A stretch of 64,000 nucleotides of DNA. Source: Blattabacterium cuenoti. GTDB taxonomy: Bacteria > Bacteroidota > Bacteroidia > Flavobacteriales > Blattabacteriaceae. The stretch covers positions 459,001-523,000 of the forward strand of contig NZ_CP059183.1 of assembly GCF_014251275.1 (NCBI RefSeq), in the 5' to 3' direction. The position numbers and the translations under genes are program-made. The notes under the pieces are model-generated. The model searched no databases. It worked only from the letters and a program-made list of their open reading frames with translations, and had not been told where the DNA came from. Positions 58,286 through 61,279 of the stretch are shown piece by piece (position 1 is the stretch's first letter; each line of letters begins with the position of its first letter).

Positions 58286-59119
58286 ATGACAATTAATTGT
58301 TCAGGAACTATATTAGATTTAAAAACACCAAAAGTAATGGGTATAGTGAATTTAACCCCAGATTCTTTTTATGATGGTGGAAATCTAAAAAATGAACGTG
58401 ATATATTAAAACATGTAGAACTTTTATTAAAAGAAGGAGCAGATATTATAGATATTGGAGGATGTTCTACAAGACCTGGATCTACAATAATAACAAAAGA
58501 AGAAGAATTAAAAAGAGTAGAAAAACCCATTATAAGCATTATAAAAAATTTTTCAAATATTAAAATATCAATAGATACTTTTAGAAGTGAAGTTGCAAAA
58601 ATGGCTTTAAACGAAGGAGCAGTAATGATAAACGATATATCAGGTGGAATTTTAGATAATAATATGTTTTCTTTATTAGAAAAATTTAAAATTCCCTATG
58701 TATTAAATCATATGAAAGTATTTCCTAAAATTATGCAAAAATATATATCGTATAACCAAAATATAATTATAGAAATTAATCACTTTTTTTCAAAAAAAAT
58801 ACACTATTTAAAAAAACATGGCATAAATGATATTATTTTAGATCCTGGATTCGGTTTTGGAAAAACATTAAAACAAAATTTAACATTGTTAAAATATTTA
58901 CAATTATTGGGTTTTCAAGATTATTTAATATTAATAGGTGTATCTAGAAAATCTATGATTAAAAAAATATTAAATATTTCTTATGAAGAATCATTAAATG
59001 GAACTTCAATTATTCATACTATATCTATTTTAAAAGGAATAAAATTTTTTAGAGTACATGATGTTAAAGAAGCTATAGAATGCATAAAATTAATAGAATA
59101 CTATAAATTTCTTGATTAA
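58286..59119 (+). CDS. folP: dihydropteroate synthase
   Basis: 277 residues. MGIVNLTPDSFYDGG, GADIIDIGGCSTRPGS, ISIDTFRSEVA, LDPGFGFGKT and the late GVSRKS are the pterin/pABA-site loops of DHPS. It joins pABA to a pterin, the target of sulfonamides. It is divergent from the DUF1599 gene (92-base gap) and followed by the cdaA remnant region. Confidence 0.95.
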   Translation: MTINCSGTILDLKTPKVMGIVNLTPDSFYDGGNLKNERDILKHVELLLKEGADIIDIGGCSTRPGSTIITKEEELKRVEKPIISIIKNFSNIKISIDTFRSEVAKMALNEGAVMINDISGGILDNNMFSLLEKFKIPYVLNHMKVFPKIMQKYISYNQNIIIEINHFFSKKIHYLKKHGINDIILDPGFGFGKTLKQNLTLLKYLQLLGFQDYLILIGVSRKSMIKKILNISYEESLNGTSIIHTISILKGIKFFRVHDVKEAIECIKLIEYYKFLD

Positions 59120-59212
59120 AAAATTTTAATATTATTATTTAAACTTATACATATTATACATAAACATACATGTTAGTTAGTTAATGTTAATTTATTTTTA
59201 TATTTTTTTTAA

Positions 59213-59332
59213 ATTTATTTCATTGATATTTTTTTATATATTCCCTTAGTAACTATTATACTTTTTCAGTTATATATATTATAAAATAATATTAATTATA
59301 GTGTTTTTGCAATTTTTACTTTATGAAAAGTA
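59213..59332 (+). pseudogene. decayed 5' end of cdaA (membrane helices 1-2)
   Basis: In the same frame as the intact domain that follows, the DNA reads IYFIDIFLYIPLVTIILFQL, YIL, a TAA stop (59282-59284), NNINYSVFAIFTL, a TGA stop (59324-59326) and KV-LEIYEMKFLS. Family CdaA reads roughly FIDI...LLYQLYKL...INIFIG...YLLWKVVE..EMKLLS, so FIDI, QLY and INxxxxxIxxL-x-KVxE line up. The TGA falls where a Trp is usual. A few codons are also missing after QLY. The two stops must be point-mutation damage (or recoding) rather than noise, because the flanking match is in one frame. Confidence 0.6.
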
Positions 59333-59953
59333 TTGGAGATTTATGAAATGAAATTTCTTAGCATAGTTGTATTTACTTTTTTTAAAGGAGTAATTTTAGC
59401 TTTAATTATTGTATTTCAACCAGAAATAAGAAAATTTTTTCTTCTACTAGTAAGTAGAATTTTTTTTAAAAAATTTATTATTTCTATTTTTAAAAGATCT
59501 GTAGTATCTATAAAAACGAAAACAATAGATAGTATTGTAAAATCTTGTTCTATATTTTCTGGAGATAAAACAGGAGTATTAATTGTAATTCAACTACATC
59601 AAGATTTAAAAGATTTTATTCAAAATGGAGATGAAATGGATGCAAAGATAAATATACCTATATTAGAAAGTATATTTTACAAAAATAGTCCATTACATGA
59701 TGGAGCTGTAGTTATTATAGAAAATAAAATAATAAAAACCAGAGCTATTCTTCCTGTATCTTACAATAAAGAAATTCCATCCCGTCTAGGTCTACGTCAT
59801 AGAGCAGCTATTGGATTATCTGAAAAAACTGACGCTATATGTATTGTAGTTTCAGAAGAAACAGGATACATATCTTACATAAAAGATAAAAAAAGAACTA
59901 TTATTACTAATATTAATAATTTAAAGATGAAATTAGAAAAAGATTTGTTATAA
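59333..59953 (+). CDS. cdaA: diadenylate cyclase, N-terminally truncated
   Basis: 206 residues; the family usually has about 260. It makes c-di-AMP from two ATP. The DisA_N catalytic motifs are intact: DGA at 123-125 (SPLHDGAVVI) and RHR at 155-157 (GLRHRAAIG). Only the third helix remains (about 9-28, LSIVVFTFFKGVILALIIVF). The start is TTG 59333 or ATG 59348. Sequence for helices 1 and 2 is visible upstream in the same frame but is broken by TAA and TGA. A single-helix or loosely anchored enzyme is expected. It precedes murF by 12 bases. Confidence 0.85.
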   Translation: MEIYEMKFLSIVVFTFFKGVILALIIVFQPEIRKFFLLLVSRIFFKKFIISIFKRSVVSIKTKTIDSIVKSCSIFSGDKTGVLIVIQLHQDLKDFIQNGDEMDAKINIPILESIFYKNSPLHDGAVVIIENKIIKTRAILPVSYNKEIPSRLGLRHRAAIGLSEKTDAICIVVSEETGYISYIKDKKRTIITNINNLKMKLEKDLL

Positions 59954-59965
59954 AATACTTATATC

Positions 59966-61279
59966 ATGGATTTCAAAAAAATATATGAAATATATAGTAT
60001 TATTTCTACTGGAATAGTAACAAATAGTAAAAAAGCAAGAAAAGGATCTATTTTTATAGCTTTTAAAGGAAAAAAACTAGATGGAAATAAGTTTGTTTCA
60101 GAAGCAATTTTAAATGGAGCAATACTAGCTATAATGGATAATAAAAAATATTTTTCTACATCTTGTAATAAAATGATCCTTGTAAATAACACATTACATT
60201 TTTTGCAAAAATTAGCAATTTATCACAGATACAAAAATAATCATATTCCAATTATAGCTATTGTAGGCAGCAATGGAAAAACAACTACAAAAGAATTACT
60301 ACATAAAATTTTTGCAAAAAAATATAAAAATGTTCATTCCACTAAAAAAAATTATAACAATCATATAGGAGTACCACTAACTATACTTTCTATGCCTAAA
60401 AAAACACAAATATCAGTTATAGAAATTGGAGCTAATCATGAAAAGGAAATAGAAAAGATGTGTAGGATAGTTAATCCAGATTATGGATATATTACAAATT
60501 TTGGAAAAGCACATTTAGAAGGATTTCATGATTTTATAGGAATTATACGTAGTAAATTAGAATTATATAAATATTTAGAAAATTCAAATAAATTAGCTTT
60601 TGTAAATGGTGATGATACTATTCAATTATCTAATTGTATAAATTTAAAAAAATTTATTTTTTCATCAGAAAAAATAAATATAAATCCCGATGTAAAATTT
60701 AAATATTTATGGAATTACAAAGGCCTAAAATCTGTATTATTAATTGGAAATACAAAAATTATTTCTCCTCTTATAGGAGATTATAATTTGTATAACATGG
60801 CTGCATCAGTTACTATTGGTATTTATTTTAAAATTTCTATTAACATAATAAAAAAAGCAATAGAAGAATACATTCCAAAAAATTATCGTTCTCAAATTTT
60901 TGAAAAAAAAGATAAAAAGATAATTGTAGATTGTTATAACGCTAATCCAACAAGCATGATAAAAGCTCTTAGATTTTTTAATAATAATATTGAAGGAAGA
61001 AAAGCTATTATACTAGGAGATATGTTAGAACTAGGACGTTTTTCAAATGAAGAACATGAAAAAATTATTAGTTTTGTAGAGAAAAGTAATATTGAGATTG
61101 CATTTTTGATTGGAAATAATTTTTTTTATACCAAAAAAAATTATACTAAAATAAAAAAATTTTTGAATGTTAAAATGTTTGCTGACTGTGTACTAAAACA
61201 TCCTATAAAAAGTGTAGATTTTATTCTTATTAAAGGATCAAGAAAAATAAAACTGGAAAAAATCATTTATTTAATATAA
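59966..61279 (+). CDS. murF: UDP-MurNAc-tripeptide D-Ala-D-Ala ligase
   Basis: 437 residues of the Mur ligase family. The ATP loop AIVGSNGKTTTKELLHKIF is near 100-118, followed by VIEIGANHEKEIEKM, GKAHLEGF and DCYNANPTSMIKALRFF. It adds D-Ala-D-Ala (made by Ddl, 30945) to the peptidoglycan precursor. N-terminal TNSKKARKGSIFIAFKGKKLDGNKFV is the substrate domain. It is preceded by cdaA (12 bases) and followed by pdhA (73 bases). Confidence 0.95.
   Translation: MDFKKIYEIYSIISTGIVTNSKKARKGSIFIAFKGKKLDGNKFVSEAILNGAILAIMDNKKYFSTSCNKMILVNNTLHFLQKLAIYHRYKNNHIPIIAIVGSNGKTTTKELLHKIFAKKYKNVHSTKKNYNNHIGVPLTILSMPKKTQISVIEIGANHEKEIEKMCRIVNPDYGYITNFGKAHLEGFHDFIGIIRSKLELYKYLENSNKLAFVNGDDTIQLSNCINLKKFIFSSEKININPDVKFKYLWNYKGLKSVLLIGNTKIISPLIGDYNLYNMAASVTIGIYFKISINIIKKAIEEYIPKNYRSQIFEKKDKKIIVDCYNANPTSMIKALRFFNNNIEGRKAIILGDMLELGRFSNEEHEKIISFVEKSNIEIAFLIGNNFFYTKKNYTKIKKFLNVKMFADCVLKHPIKSVDFILIKGSRKIKLEKIIYLI

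Follow-up and report, generated by a model that had tools for sequence, protein, structure and literature searches.

A truncated cdaA gene in Blattabacterium with eroded membrane helices and a diadenylate cyclase domain probably kept under selection

The window analysed here, a stretch of 64,000 nucleotides (bases 459001-523000 of a single-contig Blattabacterium genome of 594,902 bp, labelled G000), carries the only DAC gene of that genome, a cdaA caught half-way through erosion. The explanation that we consider probable is a truncated one-helix CdaA whose DAC domain was kept under selection past the loss of membrane helices 1-2. Because the DAC domain outlived the loss of the helices, as judged from its pattern of substitutions, the truncated product is most likely a functional one-helix enzyme, or was one until very recently. 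Among named sequences, strains of Blattabacterium cuenoti match G000 most closely. The locus was compared across 49 Blattabacterium genomes, G000 included.

Table 1. Features of the cdaA locus, in window coordinates.
Feature	Position	Strand	Details and basis
Truncated cdaA	59333..59953	+	206 aa from TTG 59333 or 201 aa from ATG 59348; ORF list, Pfam DAC match, partial TIGR00159 match
Fossil of CdaA helices 1-2	59210..59332	+	In-frame stops TAA 59210, TAA 59282 and TGA 59324; +3 and -15 nt indels relative to intact genes; profile match, DNA alignment
Membrane helix 3 with cytosolic flank	59348..59434	+	Hydropathy; AlphaFold helix 2-28
DAC (diadenylate cyclase) domain with DGA and RHR motifs	59540..59893	+	PF02457, invariant family positions, fold match
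folP, conserved upstream neighbour	58286..59119	+	Order the same wherever a genome retains folP
murF, conserved downstream neighbour	59966..61279	+	Follows cdaA or its former place in 49/49 genomes

The gene is orthologous to CdaA, with a folP-cdaA-murF order as in relatives and 87% identity to the best of them. As the original prediction held, it combines a complete DisA_N/DAC domain (PF02457, residues 70-187, 132.8 bits) with a single helix in the hydropathy profile. The DGA and RHR motifs are invariant in the alignment, every invariant family position is retained in the window, and the domain contains no stop and no indel. The CdaA family model TIGR00159 scores 153 bits, below its cut-off of 188.8, and aligns only from model position 56 on, as expected for a CdaA without its 5′ part; helix 3 is the only one of the three N-terminal helices left, helices 1-2 carrying stops. 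By sequence, the gene is classed as a truncated CdaA derivative rather than a full TIGR00159 member. The NCBIfam CdaM model NF038327 gives 108.1 bits, short of its cut-off of 225, and both hydropathy and the structure model show one helix followed by a DAC domain. The layout is thus CdaM-like, but the gene is a CdaA by descent and not a CdaM member. The AlphaFold model (mean pLDDT 82) consists of N-terminal helices and then a DAC fold, and a structure comparison ranked DacM of Mycoplasma ovipneumoniae first (E 2.7e-18), followed by CdaA of Bacillus subtilis. A promoter and terminator scan gave no signal exceeding chance, and an Rfam comparison returned zero matches.

Upstream of the DAC domain and in the same frame, the translation reads IYFIDIFLYIPLVTIILFQLYIL-stop-NNINYSVFAIFTL-stop-KV. 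A profile of helices 1-2 built from 42 intact Blattabacterium CdaA proteins matches this DNA in the DAC frame at 16.4 bits, against maxima of 8.4 among dinucleotide shuffles (n=1000) and 8.7 among control segments of the window (n=1025). These controls rule out chance resemblance, and the upstream residues align with the N-terminal helices of CdaA, as had been proposed. Two stops had been reported in this fossil, at 59282 and 59324. Both are real, but the count was incomplete: the DNA alignment reveals one more in-frame stop, the TAA at 59210, which brings the total to three. There the TTG-AAA of many relatives, a likely start before helix 1, has become TTT-TAA. Two in-frame indels relative to intact genes, an insertion of 3 nt and a deletion of 15 nt, had also been overlooked. 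Both lie, in that order, between the second TAA and the TGA. The TGA falls, as first noticed, on a position that is usually Trp (FWK, encoded by TTC TGG AAA in relatives; TTA TGA AAA in the window). One sequencing error could not account for so many lesions; several independent errors would be needed.

The alignment with other Blattabacterium strains that accompanied the original prediction as a proposed check shows that the N-terminal helices are kept in 42/49 genomes, where cdaA is a full-length frame with all three helices and 254-286 codons from stop to stop. The G000 frame has 208 codons and comprises helix 3 and DAC only; with 42 intact relatives, the short form is ruled out as the ancestral state. 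G029 (locus L166, about 1368-2185) also has degraded helices 1-2. Its helix 3 occupies a 62-codon frame with its own ATG, the DAC domain lies in another frame, and slippage at a T10 run could join the two. G000 and G029 probably lost the helices independently: they carry different lesions, and G029 groups with G038, whose cdaA is intact (weak support, 53). Five genomes (G006, G013, G009, G039 and G014) have no DAC match, and cdaA is dispensable in the genus since these relatives live without it. On a tree of MurF, PdhA and PdhC, the total losses fall on three branches: G006 with G013, G009 with G039, and G014. About 118 bases are left between folP and murF in G009 and G039. G014, with the smallest genome (511,065 bp), carries a decayed DAC fossil adjoining murF (L151, about 1410-1530) that shares an identical 24-base stretch with the window and is the end state of the erosion of cdaA.

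Two genomes present the reverse of the window's pattern: L123 (G010) and L124 (G022) keep three helices, yet their DAC domains are the most changed of the intact set, with 13 and 14 departures at conserved positions. The neighbouring genes vary as well. murF, normally an essential gene, is split by a frame break in 4/49 genomes (L140, L162, L172 and L175, in G003, G025, G035 and G038), for which slippage rescue, split genes or sequencing error are alternative explanations. Among the genomes tested, folP is missing from G006, G013 and G014, and it is broken in L169 (G032) and L177 (G040).

Selection was assessed with a joint codon model in which neutral time is shared across regions, chosen because separate per-region fits saturated (branch length of 20 for the fossil; omega of 20 for the helix 3 region). 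In this model the omega values on the G000 branch, which are rough because substitution times on that branch are large, were 0.249 for the fossil against a background of 0.041 (LRT 9.9), 0.113 against 0.042 for helix 3 with its flank (LRT 3.4, not significant; omega=1 rejected, LRT 9.7) and 0.022 against 0.029 for DAC (LRT 0.2; omega=1 rejected, LRT 13.5). When DAC was fitted alone, its omega came to 0.013 on the branch of G000 (omega=1 rejected, LRT 11.3) and to 0.016 on that of G029 (likewise rejected, LRT 27.5). Equality of fossil and DAC was rejected (LRT 24.9; 24.2 and 27.5 with other taxon sets), as was equality of helix 3 and DAC (LRT 10-11), helix 3 and its flank being faster than DAC on the G000 branch. 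The fossil evolves more quickly than the same region in any intact relative tested, and its omega is what neutral evolution along roughly 22% of the terminal branch would give. Had DAC been neutral over that span, about five stops would be expected, and the probability of finding none is 0.004. Positions conserved in intact relatives have changed in 7/35 cases in the helix 3 region and in 4/100 cases in DAC and the C-terminal part. The unequal release, the absence of stops and the distribution of departures show that selection on DAC continued once the membrane half had been set free. The claim that the gene lost its 5′ part and spared its catalytic part is thereby borne out by intact relatives, by the difference in omega and by a lesion-free DAC, and the further claim that the loss was recent fits the modelled 22%.

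These results bear directly on whether the entire cdaA could be a very young pseudogene with a DAC domain intact merely for want of time. The disappearance of cdaA from five genomes, including the related G014, G009 and G039, and the changes at conserved positions of helix 3 and its flank would suit such a history. We nevertheless consider it unlikely, given that a model in which fossil and DAC were released together is rejected with each taxon set and that DAC has few changes and neither stop nor indel. It is possible that DAC was selected after the truncation and that the gene died only very recently. It is highly improbable that the gene is in fact intact and was misread in sequencing or assembly, or that its 5′ part is rescued by unusual decoding, with TGA read as Trp or with slippage. 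The Trp position of the TGA and the frame-preserving indels speak for such a reading, as does the known transcript slippage at homopolymers in insect endosymbionts (PMC5009743). However, reading TGA as Trp leaves both TAA codons, slippage has nothing to mend because the net frame is already correct, and there are three stops (two TAA and one TGA), the loss of the start region and two indels to account for, all in a region that outpaces every intact relative tested.

A different question is whether the product still has a membrane anchor. One clear hydropathic helix is left before the juxtamembrane segment (residues 9-27), where intact relatives have three. A soluble cyclase starting inside or after helix 3, with this last helix also being lost, would be in keeping with the faster evolution of helix 3 and its flank relative to DAC and with the frameshift that cuts DAC off from helix 3 in G029. 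Against this, helix 3 is still strongly hydrophobic (2.66, above the value in relatives), it is not neutral in the joint model, and a conserved ATG directly precedes it, all of which makes the soluble form quite unlikely. Both starts given in the original prediction, TTG 59333 and ATG 59348, are confirmed by the ORF list, the frame being open over 59330-59953, and translation would begin at one of them. The ATG preceding helix 3 is nearly always kept in relatives, so that an internal start was available to the truncated cdaA. At window positions 59330-59338, five codons before this ATG, the GTA-GAA of relatives has become TTG-GAG, which creates a new start codon and also yields a GGAG motif nine bases before the ATG. 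Because G is rare in this genome, the change is suggestive, though it was noticed after the fact.

Under our preferred reading, a one-helix CdaA, the start region and helices 1-2 of an ancestral three-helix protein would have been lost by point mutations and small indels, and translation would have shifted to the internal start just ahead of helix 3. The product of 201-206 aa would be a one-helix diadenylate cyclase. Helix 3 would be inserted with the N-terminus outside and the C-terminus in the cytosol, a topology favoured by the positive charges that lie towards DAC (R33, K34, R42, K46 and K47). The cytosolic DAC domains would pair head to head and convert two ATP into c-di-AMP by ordinary DAC catalysis from a one-helix anchor, and PgpH would degrade the product. 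In B. subtilis CdaA, the catalytic domain retains activity when the helices are removed (PMC8573169), and CdaM of M. pneumoniae, which has one helix, makes c-di-AMP (PMC5508000). It is plausible that the loss of helices trims regulation, as was originally proposed.

As far as gene content indicates, G000 has the surroundings of a working c-di-AMP system, and other lineages are dismantling theirs. The PgpH phosphodiesterase occurs in 40/49 genomes, and the G000 copy is intact with sensor, membrane and HD domains. It is missing in eight genomes (G006, G009, G010, G013, G014, G029, G038 and G039) and stop-riddled in G002; all five cdaA-less genomes lack it, and it is missing or broken in 4/44 genomes with cdaA (Fisher p 6.6e-5, kinship ignored). 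The PgpH frame has only 522-537 codons in G041, G001 and G047 (loci listed with this protein: L191 in G041, L192 in G032). The match in G041 begins at residue 218, its N-terminal sensor part seemingly lost. A PGM_PMM protein of the type of GlmM, an inhibitor of CdaA in Firmicutes, is encoded in 49/49 genomes, and a TrkA_C protein, a possible K+ target, in 45/49. CdaR/YbbR, the known regulator that contacts the CdaA helices in Firmicutes, is absent from 49/49 genomes; loss of CdaR was rejected as the cause of the erosion in G000, since its absence is genus-wide. A DHH phosphodiesterase is uninformative as a c-di-AMP marker, as each of the 49 genomes encodes one DHH protein, whether or not it has cdaA. 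Among the matches listed in the literature search, none was a paper on c-di-AMP in Blattabacterium, which is weak evidence of absence.

Several lineages within a single symbiont genus are taking c-di-AMP signalling apart. With a fossil half and a selected half in one gene, and relatives that are intact or without the gene, the dispensability of the CdaA helices for c-di-AMP synthesis in nature becomes testable. The locus also points to a way in which CdaM and other one-helix cyclases may have originated. Tentatively, and at slightly less than an even chance, we extend this to the genus: Blattabacterium lineages, G000 and G029 independently, may repeatedly erode the membrane half alone and so turn a CdaA with three helices into a cyclase that is soluble or, like CdaM, has a single helix. 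Genome reduction could then be observed giving rise to CdaM-type enzymes, before cyclase and PgpH, and with them the entire c-di-AMP system, vanish.

The window gene resembles CdaA/DacA (TIGR00159) in sequence orthology, in its folP-cdaA-murF neighbourhood and in its DAC domain. It differs from these three-helix proteins in that the original start and helices 1-2 survive only as a fossil and that helix 3 seems to evolve faster than in relatives. With CdaM/DacM of Mycoplasma, which provided the top structural match, it shares one N-terminal helix, a DAC domain and a genome-reduced bacterium, but not descent, as the N-terminus of CdaM is not CdaA-like (PMC5508000). Engineered forms, the delta-100 CdaA of Listeria monocytogenes and the CdaA-CD of B. 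subtilis, demonstrate that DAC works without the membrane domain (PMC8573169); by comparison, the window holds a natural truncation with one helix retained. Length changes in domain and non-domain regions are known from endosymbiont proteins (PMC4007534). Relative to the known partial erosion of genes in reduced endosymbionts, the lost half of this cdaA is still readable and its kept half is under selection on the same branch.
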